Source of the DNA: Holtermannia corniformis
Lineage: Eukaryota > Basidiomycota > Tremellomycetes > Holtermanniales
Assembly: GCA_001599935.1 (NCBI GenBank)
Contig: BCIJ01000004.1
Span: forward strand, 412,346-476,345
Direction of reading: 5' to 3'
DNA: 64,000 nt
How positions within the stretch are numbered: the stretch's first letter is position 1; each line of letters opens with the position of its first letter. The notes beneath the pieces are model-generated. The model had not been told where the DNA came from. It saw nothing but the letters and a program-made list of their open reading frames with translations, and did no database searches. Position numbers and translations under genes: made by a program. Of this stretch, positions 27,028-37,308 are shown piece by piece.

Positions 27028-27940
27028 TCACTCCCCGGAAAACGTCTTTGGCGGTGCGTGCGAGATGTTGAGATCGCGCATCTTGCCCTGAGAAGGATTA
27101 GTGTCGAATGGACAGAATGACGAGTAACGCACATCCTCGAGCTGATAGACCATGCCGTGGATGTAGACTACCGTCAGCGCGCTCTCATCACCGACAGCTC
27201 ACCTCCATTGGCGCCTCGCCGCTTCCAGTCGTCCTGCATCGTCAGCCACCACTCCAGCCAACCCAGCGCACACACCTGTATAATAGTCGAATCCACAATG
27301 TGTTTCACGTTCTGCACGACATTCTCCTCGACAAGCAGGTCCAAGCTCGGTGGGTGGCCGAGGTCATCCTTGAGCCGCCTCGCAAGCGCTATCAGCGGTC
27401 GGAGAAAACGCTGAAGCGGGGCCATGGCGGGTGTATCGGGAAACATGGAGGCCGAGAGGGCCGACTGGCAGCCGACGCAGTTGGTGTGCCCGACGACCTG
27501 CGATCAGCCACGCACTCGAGGGCACGGCTCACCATGATATGCTTGATTTTGAGATTCTTGAGGGCCAGATCGATGACGGCGTTGATGCTGTCGTCTTTCT
27601 GACTGTACGTGTTTGCGATATTGCGGTGGACAAAGATTTCGCCGGGCGCGGCGTTGAACAGTGTCGATTCGGGAACGCGCGCATCCGAGCCTGATCGTCA
27701 GGTGTGCCACTTTGCCTTGAACTCACATCCTGCGGTCAGCTCGGTCAATCCGAAGAAACTCACCAATCCACAAGAGCTTCGGCCTCTGCCCCTTGTAATT
27801 GCGAGCAAAGAAATCCGGATCATGCTCGGCGATTCGCTGGGCCCATTCGGCGTTGCGCTCGACCAATTCGACCTAGGTTGTCAGTACTGCACCCCGTCGT
27901 GCGATCAGCGTACGAGCTCTGGAAAGTGACGGAGTGGCAT
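27028..27940 (-). CDS. Beta-carbonic anhydrase
   Basis: Interconverts CO2 and bicarbonate with a zinc ion. Eight exons give 214 residues: 27940-27914, 27872-27764, 27729-27727 (3 nt), 27690-27533, 27497-27276, 27233-27203, 27167-27133 and 27087-27028. Every join is in frame and restores the family pattern: KLLWIG, active-site CSDARVPES, FVHRNIANTY, INAVIDLALKNLKIKHI, zinc motif VVGHTNCVGC, LVEENVVQNVKHI, then VYIHGMVYQLEDGKMRDL at the end. Zinc ligands are Cys of CSDAR plus His and Cys of GHTNC. The zinc Cys codon is assembled from the 3-nt exon and the next one; skipping that exon would keep the frame but lose the Cys. No targeting signal is obvious, so the protein is probably cytosolic. Confidence 0.92.
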
Positions 27941-28532
27941 GGTTGTTAGCGAGTGAGCGAGCGGCCATCACGATCAGGTATGGGTCAAAGGGGCCAAGGC
28001 GAGACTGTGATCGACAGTCGACGTTTCAGCACGGTGGCGCCCGCTAGGTTTTCGCTGGGCTCATGCACAACCTACCACGGTGGGAGATGATCCGCAGGTC
28101 TGTGCGCTGTGGCTGATGCAGTGGCAGCGATGCATCCTGGTGTGGGCTTTCCACCTGCACCGAGTGATTGCGTATCGACTTTACTGCGTAGCTTGGCTGC
28201 CTCGCCCGGCCGCAAGACCCGGCTAACCCCCTGTTCGGCCGAATGACATCAAAGAAGCTGTCGTCGGGAAGTCGGCCTTGACGATCGTCCAGCACCTGTC
28301 CATCTCCAGACTACAGTACGCTTGCATGCCCACGCCCTCCGCCTGTACCGGCTCTCCGGGGCTATCACGCACCCACCGGCTCGACCGGACCGCACGGTGC
28401 CACTGCTGGTTGCGTTTTCCGTGGGGGGTTGCCATAACGCCGCGCGCGCCGGCCCTGAGCTGACCTGACGTCGCCCCTTCTTCCGCTCACTTCCACCATC
28501 TACCTCTCACATCTACACATCCACTTGAAAAC
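27941..28532. other. Intergenic stretch with a duplicated scrap
   Basis: It contains the second copy of the SLEMDRCWTIVK-encoding repeat (28256-28435, minus frame with KRNQQWHRAV) but no complete gene. It also serves as the promoter region of the divergent carbonic anhydrase and 6PGDH genes; a CT-rich stretch precedes the 6PGDH start. Confidence 0.45.
28278..28318. repeat. Short dispersed repeat, copy 2
   Basis: Near-identical to 25118-25157, in the same orientation. Confidence 0.65.
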
Positions 28533-30296
28533 ATGTCGGAGCAACTGTGCGTAGCTGGTAGTGTGTGCGGCACAACTGACACCTCGCAGCGGAGACATCG
28601 GACTGATCGGTCTTGCCGTCATGGTGGGTATCCGAGCTTGGGCCGGCCCGTGCTGACGTTCAGGGCATGAACCTGATCCTCAACATGAACGACAAGGGCT
28701 TCAAGGTCGTTGCGTACAACCGGTGGGTAGCTGGTCGTCCCTGCTTAAAGCTAATATCTCAGCACGACCTCCAAGGTCGACCACTTCCTCGAGAACGAGG
28801 CAAAGGGCACCCAAATCCAGGGCGCCCACTCTGTTCAAGAGCTCTGCGCCAAGCTTGCCCGTCCCCGCAAGATCATCTTGCTCGTCAAGGCCGGCCAGGC
28901 CGTTGACGACTTTATTGCCCAGCTCGAGCCTCACCTCGAGAAGGGTGACATTATCATTGACGGGGGTAACTCGTTCTNCCCCGACTCGATCCGCCGCACC
29001 AAGGAGCTCGAGGCCAAGGGCCTGCTCTTTGTCGGTTCCGGTGTCTCGGGTGGCGAGGAGGGTGCCCGTCTCGGGCCCTCGCTCATGCCCGGTGGTTCCG
29101 ACGCCGCCTGGCCCCACATCAAGGAGATTTTCCGTAAGTCGAAGAGTTTCTAGGAGCGCTCTAACAGTTCGCAGAAAAGACTGCCGCTCAGGCGTTTGGC
29201 GAGCCGTGCTGCGACTGGGTCGGTCAGGGCGGTTCGGGCCACTACGTCAAGATGGTCCACAACGGTATCGAGTACGGAGACATGCAGCTCATCGGCGAGG
29301 CCTACACCATTCTCAAGACCGGTCTTGGTCTTGCCGAGGCCGAGATTGCCAGCATTTTCGAGACTGTACGTCTTTCTAATCTCAACCCTGCTAACCCCGC
29401 AGTGGAACAAGGGTGTCCTCGACTCGTTCTTGATCGACCTCACCGCCCAGGTCCTTCGCTATACCGACCAGACCGACGGCCAGCCCGTTGTCACCAAGAT
29501 TCTCGACCAGGCCGGCCAGAAGGGTACCGGCAAGTGGACCGGTATCAACGCTCTCGACGCCGGTATCCCCGTCACCCTGATCGGCGAGGCCGTATTCGCC
29601 CGCTGCCTCTCTGCTATCAAGGAGGAGCGCATCAAGGCCTCCAAGGTCCACGCCGGTCCTGAGAAGCAGGCGTTTGCCGGTGACAAGCAGCAGTTCATCG
29701 AGTAGGTGATTGGCGTTTAGCAAACACTACTTACATTCGCAGCGACCTTGAGCAAGCCCTTTACGCGTCCAAGATCATCTCGTACGCCCAGGGCTTCATG
29801 CTCTTCCGCCAGGCCGCCAAGGACTACGACTGGGAGCTCAACTACGCCGGCATCGCCGCCATGTGGCGCGGCGGCTGCATCATTAGTGGGTTGCTGCACA
29901 CTCTAGAGTGCGCTAACCCGCGCAGAGAGCGTCTTCTTGCGTGACATTACCGAGGCTTACCGCAACAACCCTGATTTGACCAACCTCTTGTTCGACCAGT
30001 TCTTCCTCGACGCCATCACCAAGGCCCAGCCCGGATGGCGCCGTGTGGTCGCCCAGTCGACCCTGTGGGGTATCCCCATCCCGGCCCACTCGACCGCGCT
30101 CTCGTTCTTTGACGGTTTCCGTTCAGAGACGATCCACTCGGCCTCGCTCATCCAGGGTCAACGTGACTTTTTCGGTGCCCACACGTTCCGTGTTCTCCCG
30201 GGCAAGGAGAACGATGCGCTCCCGGCGGGCAAGGACATTCACATCAACTGGACTGGCCGTGGCGGCAACGTCTCGTCGTCGACCTACAACGCCTAG
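28533..30296 (+). CDS. GND1: 6-phosphogluconate dehydrogenase (decarboxylating)
   Basis: Third enzyme of the oxidative pentose phosphate pathway: 6-phosphogluconate plus NADP to ribulose-5-phosphate, CO2 and NADPH. The tiny first exon (MSEQL) splices to [19 protein letters not shown], the NADP-binding Rossmann start. Then come DGGNSFxPDS (N at 28978 hides one residue), the [20 protein letters not shown] substrate loop, [20 protein letters not shown] with the catalytic Lys, the 6PGDH signature [19 protein letters not shown], and the C-terminal [11 protein letters not shown] with substrate-binding residues. The length of about 490 residues is standard. Introns of about 40 nt lie near 28550, 28620, 28720, 29130, 29370, 29705 and 29885. 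There is no peroxisomal tail. Highly conserved and confident. Confidence 0.96.
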
Positions 30297-30443
30297 GCGT
30301 CATTGTAGGATAGGCAGTGAATGTAGATGATCACCAGACCTCCACTGCATCTGACCGGGGCGGGCCGACAGGCCGACCATGCCGGTTCGCCATAGCACCA
30401 CCATAGGTCATGAGCAGCTCACGACCCGTTCAATGCGTTCCCA

Positions 30444-32142
30444 ATGTCTGCTAATCCAGAACCGCAGTTTGCCCATCTCCGCCATGTGCAGAGCATCGAG
30501 CAAGCCGTAGCGGCGCCCGAGCCAGCGTTGACGCGCTCGGAAAAGAATCGCGACGAAGAGCACGCGCAAAAAGGTTACGAGTACGCCGAGGGCGGCCACG
30601 GCTGGGTCGTGCTTGCCAGCTGTGTGGTCTTTGCAGCATGCACCATGGGCTGGGGAATGGGCAGCGGTGGTGTTTTCCAAGAGGTGAGTGCGCCTCGTCG
30701 ATCCCAACTAACGGTCAGTACTACGCAAACGAAGTGTTCAAAGGCCAGAGCACGAGCAAGATTTCATTGATCGCTAGTTTCCTCGGATTTGTGAGTCAGC
30801 ACGTCCCGACGTTGCTAATGGCAGTTTCTCAACAGTACCGCGGCCATTTCCGGTCGCTTGGCCGATCGGTACGGCCCCAAGCCGATCATGTATACTGCGA
30901 TTTTTGTCGCCTGGGTCGGCAACTTTAGCGCGAGCTGGTGCACAAAGGTCTGGCAGCTCATTCTCTGTCAGGTAGGTTGATCTCTCGTGGCGTTGCTGAT
31001 GACAGGGGATCATTGCGGGTATTGGGTCCGGTGCGGCCGTGCCGCTGTTCCTGTCGATCCCGCCACAATGGTTCTACAAGCGCCGAGGGTTGGCGAGTGG
31101 GATTTCGATGGGCGGGGCGGGTGTTGGTACGTCTACTTGGGCTAGATGTCACTGACCGCAGGCGGTGCCGTGTGGTCGCTCGTGATCCGGCAGCTGCTTT
31201 CGACCGTCGGGTATAAGCGTACCCTCTTGTAAGTCTCGACGTAGCTGCCCGAGCTTACCGCAGGATCATGTCGTTCATCCTCGCCCTGCTTTGCTTGATC
31301 GCAACCGCTCTAATCCGGATCCAGCCCGATTCGCCCGAAGCGCAGGTCCGCCGCGGGCCCTTCATCGACAAGCGCGTCCTACGGCGTAGCGCGTTCTGGA
31401 GCTTGGTCGTCAGCATCGCGATCGGAACCTTTGGCTACATGTAAGTCTACGACCCAAGACTCTGCTGACTACCAGCATCCCGCTCAACTTTATCACGTCT
31501 TATGCCAAGTCGGTCGCGCCTCAAGGTGACCCTATCATGACGGCTCTGTTAGTCTGCCATCACGCCGAGAACCACACTGACGAGCAGACCTTTGACAATC
31601 ATGAGCATCTGCTCATGGCTAGGCCGCGCCGCTATCGGCTCCGTTTCCGACGCGATCGGCCCGCTCAACGCCTACGTTCTACTCTGGCTCTGGTCCGGCA
31701 TGTGCCAAATGGCCATCTGGTACACTGCGCACTCGTATGGCCAGATCATGGCTTTCGTCGTCCTCTGGGGTCTCACCGCGCCCGTACGTCCCTTGACGTC
31801 CCTTATCCCACTCCGCTCACACGCCCAGGGCTTCTTTGGTCTCTTGCCGCAAATCATCATCTCCGTCTTTGGGCCTGAGAACCTCGCGTCGAATTCGGGC
31901 TTGATACTGCTCGTGATCAGTATCGGTAACGTTGGAGCCGGTCCGATTGGCGGCAGGATCTACGACGCGACGCCGGGGACGGACGCGAGCGGGTGGAAGT
32001 GGGTGATTGTGTTTGGAGCGGTGACCCAGCTGCTAGGCGGGCTCACGGCTTGTTGGGGTGAGTCTGGGCGTTTGGACGGGATAGAGCTGACACGGCTGTA
32101 GCGCGATATCGAGCGTCACGCAAAGTCTTTGCTAGGGCTTAG
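30444..32142 (+). CDS. MFS transporter, monocarboxylate (MCT/MCH) type
   Basis: A plasma-membrane-type carrier of the major facilitator superfamily. After an acidic, hydrophilic N-terminus, the first helix has the GGHGWVVLASCVVFAACTMG start typical of fungal monocarboxylate-transporter homologues. Helices 2-4 carry ISGRLADRYGPKPIMY (the loop 2-3 motif). Then come QGIIAGIGSGAAVPLFLSIP, YKRRGLASGISMGGAGVGGA, a cytoplasmic loop with RRGPFIDKRVLRR, and in the second half GRAAIGSVSDAIG and NVGAGPIGGRIYD. About 12 membrane segments. Introns of 35-50 nt; the last exon adds a short basic tail ending 32140-32142. Substrate cannot be told from sequence; fungal relatives include riboflavin and carboxylate carriers. 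Confidence 0.85.
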
Positions 32143-32239
32143 TGCACAGGGTGTAGAAGATGCGATGATCATAATAAAGGTCTACGGTACACGATGCACA
32201 GTTACAAACATATGAGCGGTCGACGGCGCTAGAGGCGGG

Positions 32240-33404
32240 CTACCATTCAAACTCGCTGAGCGTGTTAGCGCACGACGCAGATGGCACCGACGAGCACACG
32301 CGCTGGGAAAGGCATAGCTCGAGAGGAATGGGAACGCTGGCAGGGGACGAAGCAGTCGACAATGCAACCCTCTGCGCACGCCCACGTTGGTTGAACTCAA
32401 GGTGGGCGACTGCATCCGAATCATACCCCAACGGGTAGCACATGCAGCGCTTCCACCTTGGGCGCCACGATCCAAGTACCCAGCGAGTGAAGAGGCCAAC
32501 TCACCCGTTACACTTTGCAAACAGATAATCCTTGCCATTGACATGGACCATGCCGTCCTTGAACACCGTCTTCCATTTATTCTTGACTCGCTGGACCTAC
32601 CATGCCAGTCAGCTTTGCCCTGGTTTTGCCATCGAAGCCAGCGCACCTTGTCGTAGACGCAAAACACGATATCCATCGGCCCGTCCTCGTCTTCACCGTC
32701 CTCGCCGTCGGCCGCATCGTCGTCTGAATCGTCAAGGTCGGAATCAATCACTTCGTCGCCTGGCAGCAGGCCTTTATCGTTTGGCTTGATCTCGGCTGGT
32801 TTGTCGGGTTCCGGCTGGGTTGTTAGCTGTACGCCGCGGGCGTGGTGCGACGATGACGTACCGCACCACCTCGCAGCCTCAGTGGATCCTCGGACAGCTG
32901 GTACGGCGCGCCTGGCTGGACTCCTGGCTCGGGCTTGATGGGCGGCAAGACGTATTCGGGCTTGATCCCGTTGGCTGGGAGGTGGGCGTACGGCTGAGAC
33001 AGGGGCGGTGGGTGGTGGTGCGCATAGTGTTGGACTGGACCCGCACCCGTCCCGTCAAAGTCTGCTACGCGCGTCTCGAGCAGCTTTCCCTCCCATTTCT
33101 GCGGCTGCATCACCACTTGGACGGAATCCAGCGCGGACAGACTGACCTGCTGCAACGCCCTGAGCAACTCCTCTTCCAGCCCATACTCTTCGAAATCCTG
33201 GCGAACCGACGCAATCACATCGTCGATGATGACGCGGTAGACGGCCGGCTGGAGAATGTTAGACAGTGTGCACCGGTGGGCTCTCCGGCGCCGACTGACG
33301 ACAATCTTGTTCGACCTGTGTGACAAAGCATATGAATGGATGAACGGGATACATAATGACCATGGTCAGCAGTGGGACACGGCAGATGGAGTGCAGTGAT
33401 ACCG
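32240..33404 (-). CDS. TOA1: Transcription initiation factor IIA large subunit
   Basis: Part of TFIIA, which stabilises TBP on the TATA box in Pol II initiation. The conserved N-terminal helical region reads PAVYRVIIDDVIASVRQDFE, then EYGLEEELLRALQQ and KWEGKLLETRVADFDG. A long Pro/His/Gly-rich linker follows, then an acidic stretch (DSDLDDSDDDAADGEDGED) and the C-terminal beta-barrel half, MDIVFCVYDKV ... VKNKWKTVFKDGMVHVNGKD YLFAKC ... EFEW at the very end (stop 32240-32242). The first coding exon is uncertain: SNKIV precedes the first intron and no clean ATG joins to it. An ATG at 33404 is a candidate. The gene is convergent with the MFS gene. Confidence 0.85.
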
Positions 33405-33641
33405 ACATGATGCCCTGGGCTGCCGAGGGGGATGGACGGTTGCCGCCCTTATATAGTGTGGTGGCGAGGAGGGCGCACTCAGTCGGAAGGGCCACCGGCT
33501 AAACTCGGTGGGGGAATTAGACCGGTACTTTTATTAGTTTTATCAGTTTTATTCTGTTTACGCCGAGATTTCAGAAGTTGCAGTCCACTTGCCGCACAAC
33601 GCAGTCAGTCAACCCAAACCGGTCGTGACAGTCTCGCCAGG

Positions 33642-36600
33642 ATGAGAAAGCAGCTCGACTCGCGCATCCCAGCGCTCATCAACAATGGCGTAAAGGCCAA
33701 CCACCGCAGCTTCTTCGTCATGGTCGGCGATCACGGGCGAGACCAGGTCGGTGGCTATGCGCAGTGCATGGTGCAGGACTAACACCCGCAGGTCGTCAAC
33801 CTCCACTTTCTCCTGTCGCAAACCCGTGTATCAGCTCGCCCAAGCGTCCTGTGGTGCTACAAGGACGACCTCGGGTTCACGACGTAGGTGCTACGGCAGT
33901 GGCGACTGGCTGACGACCGTAGCCACCGCAAGAAGCGCGAGGCCAAGATCAAGCGCGATGTCAAGCGCGGGATCCGGGAACCCAACGAGCAGAACCCGTT
34001 TGAACTCTTTGTGGCCGTGGCGGACATTCGGTACAAGTGAGTGGAATGACCTTGTTGCCCATTCGACTGACAAGCTTAGCAAGTACAAGGAGTCGGCAAA
34101 GGTGCTCGGTCAGACGTTTGGCATGTTGATCCTGCAAGACTATGAAGCGATCACGCCAAATCTGCTCGCGCGCACAATCGAGACCGTCGAGGGTGGCGGG
34201 ATCGTCGTGCTGCTGCTCAAGACAATGTCAAGCTTGAAGCAGCTGTATACCATGTCGATGGTGAGTGCGCTCTCCGTCGTCACTGGCTAATACTGCAGGA
34301 CGTACACTCGCGCTATCGGACCGACTCGCACGCAGCCGTCCAACCGCGCTTCAACGAGCGCTTCATCCTCTCTCTCGGCAACTGCCCAGACTGCCTCGTC
34401 CTAGACGACGAGCTCAACGTCTTGCCAATCTCAAAGGGCAAGGACATTGTCGCGCTCGATGACGCGGCGGCAGACCGCGGTCGGGCACGCAACGCTGAAG
34501 AGTTGAAAGCGATGAAGGAGAGCCTCGAGGGCGTCAACATTGTCGGATCGCTGGGCAAGCTTGCAAAGACGGTGGATCAGGTCGGTCACTGTCCCGCTGA
34601 CTCGACCGGGCTGACAAGACAGGCCAAAGCGCTGTTGACATTCGTCGAAGCCATCTCGGAAAAGACGCTCTCGTCGACCGTCTCGTTGACTGCCTCGCGT
34701 GGACGTGGTAAATCCGCCGCTCTAGGTCTCGCCATCGGCGCCGCGATCGCACACGACTATTCCAACATCTTTGTCACCTCGCCCGACCCTGAAAACCTTA
34801 AGACACTGTTCCAGTTTGTGTTCAAGGCGCTCGATGCGCTCGGGTACGAAGAGCACCTCGACTATGATGTCGTTCAGAGCACCAACCCGGCTTTCAACAA
34901 GGCGATTGTTAGAGTCAACGTGTACCGTGGCCACCGGCAGACTATTCAGGTGGGTACGGTCAGCTCACACGACGGTGCTGATGAGAGCAGTATATCCAAC
35001 CGGAAGACGCGCATGTGCTTGGCCAAGCCGAGTTGGTGATTATCGATGAAGCCGCCGCCATCCCCCTCCCGCTTGTGCGCAAGCTCCTCGGCCCGTACCT
35101 CGTCTTCATGGCGTCGACCATCAATGGGTACGAGGGGACTGGCCGATCGCTCTCGATCAAGCTGCTAGCCCAGCTGCGCGAGCAAACACGCCCATCCATC
35201 GCCAAAGAGCCCACCGGCACCAACGCTGGCCCGTCCAAAGCCTCGTCAGCAGGCCGCGCAGGTGCCGGGCTCGCCCGCTCCCTCCGCGAGATCAAACTCG
35301 ACGAACCGATCCGCTACAGTCCCGGCGACCAGGTTGAGAAATGGCTCAACTCCCTGCTCTGCCTCGATGCCTCGGCCGTCTCGCGCCTCGGCCAGGGCAT
35401 GCCCCCAGCGGAAGAGTGCGAGCTGTACTATGTCAACCGCGATACCCTGTTCTCGTACCATCCTGCATCCGAAGTCTTCTTGCAACGCATGATGGCGCTC
35501 TACGTCGCGAGCCACTACAAGAACTCGCCGAATGATTTGCAGTTGCTCAGTGATGCGCCCGCGCATCACCTGTTTGTACTCTTGCCGCCGCTCAAGGATG
35601 ACGCTAGTACCCTTCCGGACCCGCTCGTCGTGATCCAAGTCGCGCTCGAGGGCAACATTTCGAAAGACACCATCCTGCGAGAACTCGGTCGCACCGGCGT
35701 CCGCTCTTCCGGTGACATGATCCCGTGGCTCGTATCGCAGCAGGTGGGTCGTGCGGATGTGGGTCGGCGCTGACGTCTCAGTTCCAAGATAACGACTTTG
35801 CAATGCTCTCGGGTGCTCGGATCGTTCGGATCGCAGCGCACCCAGACTACACTCGGGTGGGTACCTTGCGAGCAGAGGGTTAGACTGACTGGACAGATGA
35901 AATACGGAACACGGGCACTGCAGGCGCTCAATGCGTTTTACAGCGGCGAGCTGACCAACCTCGACGAGGTGGTGGATGACGGCAGCGACGCGTTTGCAAA
36001 GGGCTCCAAGGTCGGCAAGGTAAGTTTCTGATATCACCGCCGACGACGCTAATGTGGCAGGATGCCAACTTGCTCTCGGACGACATCACCATCCGGGATC
36101 CACGCAAGATGCCGCCCTTGCTCCAACGCCTGTCCGAGCGCCGACCCGAAGCGCTCGACTACCTCGGCGTCTCGTTCGGTCTCTCCCAGCAACTATTACA
36201 GTTTTGGCGGAAAGCCGGCTTCGTCCCGCTCTATGCCAGTCAAAAGGAGAACGCGCTCACGGGTGAATACACATTTGTGATGCTGCGTGAACTGCAGAGT
36301 AAAGTCGCAGAGGCCGACAACTGGCTTGCGGCGTTTGCTCAGGGTAGGTTGCGCGGACGCGGGCGAACCCGGCTGACATGACAGACTTCCGACGGAGATT
36401 CATCAGCTTGCTGTCGTATGGCTCTTTCAAGAAATTTGATGCCGTGACGGCGATGACGGTGTTGGATGCTGCGGGCGCTGCGACCGGTAGTGTGCCCTCA
36501 AGTGAGTTGCCGCGATTTTCACGGGCAGCGGCTGATTGCAGGCACGATCACCTCCGACGAGCTCAAAGCGCTCGTCACGCCGTTCGACCTCAAACGACTC

Positions 36601-37308
36601 GAGTCGTATTCGCACAACATGCTCGAATACCACGTCATCCTCGACCTCGTCCCGACGCTTGCCAACCTGTTCTTCACACAGCGGCTTGGCTCAGAGCTGT
36701 CCCTACCTGCCACGCAGCGCGCAATCTTGCTCTGTCTCGGTCTGCAGCGCAAGTCGTTTGACGATATCGAGGCCGACTTGAAGATGGCGACGCCCCAAGC
36801 GCTTGCACTGTTTGCCAAGATGATGGTGCGGATAAGCAAGCAGCTCGAGGATATCCAGAAGAAGGCGCTGGCAGCCGACATCCCTGTCCGACAAGAGGTC
36901 ATCCGCAACGTGCCGACTGGGAACGGCAATGCACAACAGGGGACCGACAATTGGCAGCCAATGGCGACGACGGTCGAGGAGGACCTGAACGAGGTCGTAG
37001 ATGAGGAGACGAAAAAGGCGAGGGCGTTGCAGCGCGAGCTGATTGATTCGATGGATCTTTCCAAGTGAGTCTGCGTCGTCTCAGTGCCACGACTAACCGC
37101 CAGATACGCCATCGACGGCAGTGCCGACTTTTCAGAGGCGCAAGCTCAGGTCGAGGCTTTGGCCAGTGCCAAGCCAGACCAACGAGCGCGGCTGTCAACC
37201 GTCGTTAGCGTCAAGGCGGCACCTGCGGCGCCTGTCGCGACCAAGCAGAAGCGAAAAGGTGACTCGCTAGACAAGGCAGCCAAGAAGGGCAAGAAGAGCA
37301 ACGCGTGA
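33642..37308 (+). CDS. KRE33: RNA cytidine acetyltransferase Kre33/NAT10
   Basis: Makes N4-acetylcytidine in 18S rRNA and in some tRNAs and is needed for 40S ribosome assembly in the nucleolus. Exon 1 starts MRKQLDSRIPALINNGVKAN and the conserved SFFVMVGDHGRDQ|VVNLHFLLSQ follows across an intron. Next are RPSVLWCYKDDLGF, RKKREAKIKRDVKRGIR, FELFVAVADIRY, GQTFGMLILQDYEAITPNLL, and GGGIVVLLLKTM. The ATPase module has Walker A (SRGRGKSAALGL) and Walker B-like IIDEAAAIPLPLVRKLLGPY. The GNAT acetyltransferase region and LDYLGVSFGLSQQLLQFW follow, then the C-terminal tRNA-binding region and a Lys-rich tail (KKGKKSNA) probably serving nucleolar localisation. About 1040 residues, as in yeast. The stop is 32 bases from the stop of the convergent neighbour. 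Confidence 0.95.

Follow-up and report, generated by a model that had tools for sequence, protein, structure and literature searches.

How is the zinc-ligand cysteine of this carbonic anhydrase encoded, given that its codon appears to be divided between exons and completed by only three bases, GAT, lying between two introns? The gene in question lies on the minus strand of a 64,000-nucleotide stretch (here called the window; C4:412346-476345) of a genome of 20.2 Mb in 55 contigs, and positions given without a contig prefix are those of the window. An earlier note on this DNA had proposed that GAT is a microexon completing the Cys codon and, further, that exon choice could switch between an active and an inactive enzyme. 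The first proposal is the reading that we hold with high confidence: GAT would be a genuine exon of 3 nt, included as a rule in the mRNA of a functional beta-carbonic anhydrase of the CAN1 type and situated between an older downstream intron (intron 2) and a second, upstream intron (intron 1), with enzymatic activity and constitutive inclusion both predicted from sequence.

The CAN1-type gene (27028..27940, minus strand) was delineated by ab initio prediction together with a match to PF00484, and runs from ATG to stop in 8 exons; its ab initio product of 214 amino acids reads MPLRHFPELVELVERN...FSGE. A short first exon is joined by removal of a predicted 41-nt 5' intron (27873..27913), which gives MPLRHFPELVELVERN, a beginning that resembles the YPEMKEL..RN start of relatives in the alignment. 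The exon thus joined ends ...ATT-G (protein KLLWIG), with its last base at 27764. Intron 1 follows (27730..27763; 34 nt, phase 1, after ATTG), with a CTGAC branch-like motif at 27739-27735, and then the microexon GAT (27727..27729), which completes GGA (Gly) and supplies the T of TGC, the codon of the zinc-ligand Cys. Intron 2 (27691..27726; 36 nt, phase 1) splits this Cys codon as T|GC and has its CTGAC branch-like motif at 27701-27697. The exon downstream of intron 2 (27533..27690) begins GCTCGGATG, opening with the GC of the Cys codon and continuing SDARVPE...IKHIM. The remaining introns, all gene-model predictions, are of 35 nt (27498..27532), 42 nt (27234..27275), 35 nt (27168..27202), and 45 nt (27088..27132), the first two of which flank an exon encoding VVGHTNCVGC... 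(27276..27497).

Beta-carbonic anhydrases are recognized by a motif comprising the zinc ligands Cys, His, and Cys and an Asp-Arg pair. In the predicted protein, SDAR, GHT, and NC are all present; the Cys of GCSDAR requires GAT, and the His of GHT and the Cys of NC, both carried by exon 27276..27497, correspond to the remaining two zinc ligands established for beta-carbonic anhydrases. With GAT included, the product matches PF00484 at 131.9 bits (cut-off, 25.7) over profile positions 2-156 of 156, and the score drops to 118.3 bits without it. A homologue search of 5.8 billion proteins with a 205-amino-acid query found 796 relatives, 120 of which were listed; the best among the matches listed were Tremellomycete carbonic anhydrases, from Papiliotrema laurentii (64% identity), Kwoniella, and Cryptotrichosporon. 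By these comparisons, the product is a Tremellomycete beta-carbonic anhydrase of the CAN1 type, for which CO2 hydration activity is predicted. Introns as short as those of this gene might suggest Malassezia, but the protein matches point to Tremellomycetes instead. The nearest characterized family, compared here via proteins, is CAN1 of Cryptococcus (PMC4257545), C. neoformans and C. gattii CAN1 being 59% and 57% identical to the query (P0008 and P0015). In that study, an alignment with C. neoformans cDNA served to place the exon boundaries of C. gattii CAN1, and Can1p is reported to have the beta-carbonic anhydrase signature (PMC4257545).

The genome holds other matches to this family. A CAN2-like carbonic anhydrase gene at about C6:552444-553544 (L031) is predicted to have nine exons, among them an 18-nt exon encoding RNIANQ; its catalytic Cys codon is unsplit, with GCADSR lying within an ordinary 54-nt exon. 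A third, distant match, reading HTDCG, was found at C19:142368-142727 (L002; PF00484, 33.9 bits).

At the junction itself, the arrangement described in the earlier note (a 34-nt intron, GAT at 27729-27727, and a 36-nt intron) is correct to the base. Translation of the spliced sequence confirms both outcomes that it had given: joining with GAT yields KLLWIGCSDARVPES, or I-G-C-S-D-A-R, and skipping GAT yields KLLWIGSDARVPES, or I-G-S-D-A-R, with the reading frame intact. The spliced strings diagnostic of inclusion are GGATTGGATGCTCGG and GGATGCTCGG, and that of skipping is GGATTGGCTCGG. We use the term microexon for an internal exon of at most 15 nt flanked by two spliceosomal introns. Splice signals are complete on either side of GAT, as had also been claimed; among 612 predicted introns, the two donors rank at the 93rd (donor 1) and 90th (donor 2) percentiles and the two acceptors at the 66th (acceptor 1) and 11th (acceptor 2).

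Alternative ways of splicing the Cys region were enumerated using GT/GC-AG introns of at least 20 nt, and only sites beyond the initial 60 nt of the exon were considered. Only 1 of 8,292 splicings (243 with a single intron and 8,049 with two) gives LLWIGCSDAR, and it is the sole combination that both retains KLLWIG and yields CSDAR, so that the microexon is needed for the conserved product; four further splicings reach CSDAR yet destroy KLLWIG. Retention was considered as well: intron 1, if retained, causes a frameshift; with intron 2 retained, the protein reads IGCEFKAKWHT and then stops; and retention of both together also leads to a stop.

The chance of finding such an arrangement was gauged by scanning 459,712 stranded positions for AG|NNN|GT pairs. 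Summed splice scores equal to or above those of the GAT pair occurred at 2 of these positions, the GAT pair included, and no acceptor-donor pair as strong was found among the same positions when the two sites were 1-2 or 4-12 nt apart. We also employed a gene finder that makes no use of homology; it combines a codon and order-4 coding model with separate models for donors, acceptors, branch sites, and lengths. In its first run, it was trained on the window and C4:1-200000 (34,016 bases masked) and seeded with six introns of the carbonic anhydrase gene itself. This run produced 73 genes, which together have 540 internal exons and 612 introns with a median length of 46 nt, and it picked the GAT structure, with a 73-nt intron that skips GAT as runner-up, 5.5 nats lower. 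Because this run had been seeded with introns of the gene under test, a second training was carried out on C4:1-200000 only, excluding the window (463 predicted introns); the seeds now came from the CAN2-type gene (four introns), and the branch seeds and starting length curve were still set by hand. The held-out gene finder predicted the identical seven introns of the carbonic anhydrase gene, the GAT microexon among them. When the 47-nt interior was shuffled, the held-out model predicted a microexon in none of 1,000 shuffles. By our estimate, the probability that a chance pair with a G-any-T triplet arises in one of about 15 places within the 73 nt is on the order of 1e-6 to 1e-5.

Several observations count against the microexon. 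Introns 1 and 2 are short, only 2 of 463 predicted introns being 36 nt or less; lengths of 34-36 nt are found in four of the seven introns of the carbonic anhydrase gene. The low rank of acceptor 2 also counts against it, as does the size of the 73-nt skip intron, which is permitted in this genome (43 of 463 predicted introns are 70 nt or longer). Taken with the unique splicing solution, the splice-site strengths, the held-out prediction, and the relatives described below, all of which back a microexon that completes the Cys codon, we predict that the 3-nt exon GAT is very probably real.

Exon structure in relatives was read from proteins; in a search of viral contigs (16 loci, 34-39% identity) and genome contigs (34 loci, 35-41%, all those listed being bacterial by title), no fungal DNA matched. 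Among the 27 best of the 120 listed relatives, 23 show GC before S/A-D in the alignment, and the remaining 4 (P0020, P0022, P0023, and P0024) all break exactly at the Cys-codon junction. In P0020, which reads WIGSFAEAHVLITIFTLSGSDAR there, a 16-residue stretch replaces the Cys. Neither intron 1 nor intron 2 kept alone yields this reading, and its letters fit a 48-nt stretch ending AG ahead of the GNTCG exon, so the microexon model explains P0020 incompletely. P0022, from Kwoniella pini, reads ...FLTGSDAR, and P0023, a metagenome fragment that is 86% identical, starts VDGWLVLKSGSDAR. P0024, from Dioszegia hungarica, reads WIGFPPRP...ISCQAR and is frame-shifted, with out-of-frame letters that fit CAG|GCTCGGACGCC by our decoding. 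A Gly precedes SDAR in P0020, P0022, and P0023, as expected for an intron ending AG|GNTCG. From this Gly and the decoding of P0024, the acceptor of intron 2 seems to be common to all four, in which case the first base of the Cys codon, T, must be supplied by upstream sequence.

When nine aligned pieces of the 5' exon were used as queries in a second search, 8 proteins emerged from 178 candidates. P0121 to P0126 read LLWIGC or VLWIGC, and the next residue is K in P0121 and P0122, E in P0123 to P0125, and T in P0126. These residues fit read-through of a donor, GGNT|GTRAGT in five cases and a GTACGT-like donor in one (the T-ending fragment), which suggests that intron 2 is present without intron 1. 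P0121 and P0122 are near-duplicates of each other, P0123 is 86% identical over 35 amino acids to P0010, and P0125 is 88% identical over 34 amino acids to Cutaneotrichosporon cavernicola (Trichosporonales). As read from proteins, several Tremellales sequences break at the Cys codon, and the Trichosporonales-like fragments fit intron 2 alone; both observations speak for the microexon and suggest how it may have arisen. Finally, P0127, a deposited model from C. decagattii, reads ILWIGSDAR, the exact skipped form, while the Can1p of C. gattii mentioned above has the beta-carbonic anhydrase signature. The P0127 model is only 88 amino acids long and is missing a further 14 residues at another place; misannotation or decay of the gene is a likelier explanation for it than regulated splicing.

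In the simplest history, an old intron within the Cys codon was joined, in Tremellales, by another one lying 3 nt farther upstream. Under this scheme, the older intron 2 would divide the catalytic Cys codon after its T and ahead of GC, and intron 1, sitting three bases upstream, was probably gained in the Tremellales line, stranding GAT; alternatively, the upstream intron may have been lost in Trichosporonales. Each short intron would be recognized alone, by intron definition, and removed in turn. Intron definition should suffice because neither intron depends on the other for a donor, a CTGAC branch-like motif, or an acceptor. With acceptor 1 and donor 2 only 3 nt apart, simultaneous engagement of both introns is unlikely; as they have no bases in common, the mRNA would be the same whichever of them is removed first. 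The strong internal sites and the weak last acceptor should favor inclusion of GAT over skipping. Since retention of intron 1 shifts the frame and retention of intron 2 gives an early stop, splicing errors would be mostly unproductive, and skipping alone would make a full-length protein lacking the zinc Cys.

Such skipping is central to the switch proposed in the earlier note, in which GAT is a regulated cassette: inclusion would give active enzyme, and skipping would give an inactive form, lacking the Cys, that might still assemble. A role of that form in sensing CO2 can be imagined as well. We consider this very unlikely. It draws on the preserved frame, on the skip-form gene model deposited for C. 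decagattii (P0127), and on the second, plant-type carbonic anhydrase gene on C6, owing to which loss of the CAN1-type enzyme might be tolerated. There are also precedents of a kind, as glucose-controlled microexon switching has been described for Xlr2 of Trichoderma virens (PMC11121469) and a 3-bp alternative exon for homothorax of Drosophila (PMC7392893). However, the internal sites that favor inclusion are strong and the acceptor that skipping must use is weak, leaving an active/inactive switch by exon choice unsupported at this locus. Moreover, alternative splicing in C. neoformans is mostly intron retention, and is said to diversify the proteome little (PMC5006051).

Less probable again is that the 73-nt intron alone is real and that the gene makes a Cys-less protein, its ordinary activity lost. 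This structure is the second choice of the gene finder, and introns of 73 nt can occur in the present genome. For it to hold, however, the strong internal acceptor and donor must both be there by chance (2 of 459,712 positions), as must the exact G?T triplet, at about 1 in 16; in addition, the rest of the protein (SDAR, GHT, and NC) is intact, as in active relatives. A stwintron or recursive (zero-length) splice point, with nothing kept between the two introns, can be set aside as scarcely credible: a donor 3 nt past an acceptor in adjacent introns does resemble nested introns, but excising all 73 nt leaves a Cys-less protein, GAT separates acceptor from donor so that there is no fused AG|GT, each intron has a complete donor, branch-like motif, and acceptor, and no internal intron interrupts an external splice element here.

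Ultra-small exons as a kind are already known, and the included microexon that we favor has several counterparts. One is the 1-nt exon of Fusarium CYP621A P450 genes, which its authors describe as without earlier example among fungal genes (PMC12940212). Like GAT, it is a fungal ultra-small exon in a conserved motif that is kept among relatives, and it was inferred because the flanking exons could not otherwise be joined. The CYP621A exon is 1 nt long, falls in a structural PKG motif, and is RNA-confirmed, whereas GAT is a sequence-inferred exon of 3 nt in the codon of a metal ligand of a basidiomycete (PMC12940212). In plants, where 1-nt exons are known (PMC4674806, PMC8831610), the exon of Arabidopsis APC11 is constitutive, as GAT presumably is, and likewise flanked by two ordinary introns; unlike GAT, it is 1 nt long and has been tested with constructs (PMC4674806). 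The micro-exon of Drosophila homothorax shares with GAT its 3-nt length and its conservation, but it is one of two alternative versions of an exon, the other being longer, and the isoforms differ in their roles, whereas skipping of GAT would remove a catalytic residue (PMC7392893). Plant microexons more generally are conserved small exons that are often wrong in reference annotations, as in Tremellales models, although they come from an RNA-based survey of ten species and the Tremellales case is drawn from sequence (PMC8831610). Among the matches listed in full-text searches of papers available without subscription, no report of a Tremellales carbonic anhydrase microexon was found. What is new here is the catalytic metal-ligand position, the apparent conservation, and runs of 2-nt exons, described below.

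The earlier note had called exons of 3 nt extremely rare. This holds for exons generally; in the present genome, ultra-small exons look fairly common. In 264 kb comprising the window and C4:1-200000 (34 kb masked), 23 exons of 1-15 nt were predicted, versus 2, 5, 1, 5, 4, and 2 in six shuffles of intron interiors. These 23 are predictions rather than a confirmed set, one having zero score gain and several being weak, and they suggest that ultra-small exons form a class in this genome. Two predicted zero-length exons, with AG|GT joined directly, were excluded from the set; these lie at 30971/30972 (plus strand) and C4:133096/133097 (minus strand) and are possibly recursive splice points or gene-finder errors.

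A second example involving conserved residues is an M50B-like peptidase gene at C4:103869-103975 on the minus strand (L014:3869-3975), which matches PF13398 at 192.4 bits. Its ILWHVP motif requires four introns with the consecutive internal exons TG, TG, and GCATG (2, 2, and 5 nt), and this splicing is unique among 16,318 combinations of up to five introns of at least 28 nt with internal exons of at most 15 nt. The predicted joined sequence over C4:103860-103980 (minus strand) is ATTCTGTGGCATGTGCCG. Among ten relatives chosen from the 120 listed (1,447 found), four have WHV, WHI, or WHF, all of them outside Tremellales. In the other six, all from Tremellales genera, the three residues are missing (P0129, P0133, and P0145) or garbled (P0131, P0135, and P0139). 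In a carboxypeptidase-like gene, exons of 8 nt (L015:3524-3531) and 10 nt (L015:5155-5164) contribute to WLNG and MCNW, respectively, two motifs conserved in yeast carboxypeptidase Y (1wpx) by alignment; this model also holds a stretch of about 20 unmatched residues and is fused to a downstream gene. Further predictions include a 7-nt exon in a loosely aligned part of an NDUFA6-like gene and a 12-nt exon at the start of a weak, below-cut-off Pfam match in an arrestin-like gene.

On balance, we lean toward a broader proposal, of which CAN1 and the M50B-like gene would be examples: Tremellales may have conserved, largely unannotated, constitutive exons of 2-10 nt in the codons of catalytic or conserved residues, with many deposited proteins wrong at these points. 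If the GAT exon is as we predict, an exon far below the footprint of the spliceosome is needed for the metal site of an enzyme, and the short introns of Tremellales make the sequential use of neighboring splice sites directly testable. Gene models of Tremellales, Cryptococcus relatives included, could then silently drop catalytic residues, given that the C. decagattii model is without the zinc Cys and that 3 of the 10 chosen M50B-like models are without the three conserved residues. Predictions of activity or inhibitor design based on such faulty models would mislead.

Short introns are not confined to the carbonic anhydrase gene in this part of the window. Across 27028-37308, the median intron length per gene is 35-40.5 nt in four of five predicted genes and 49 nt in the fifth (32240-33408), compared with a median of 46-47 nt in C4:1-200000; the neighbor of the carbonic anhydrase gene, at 30444-32135, has a median intron of 35 nt.
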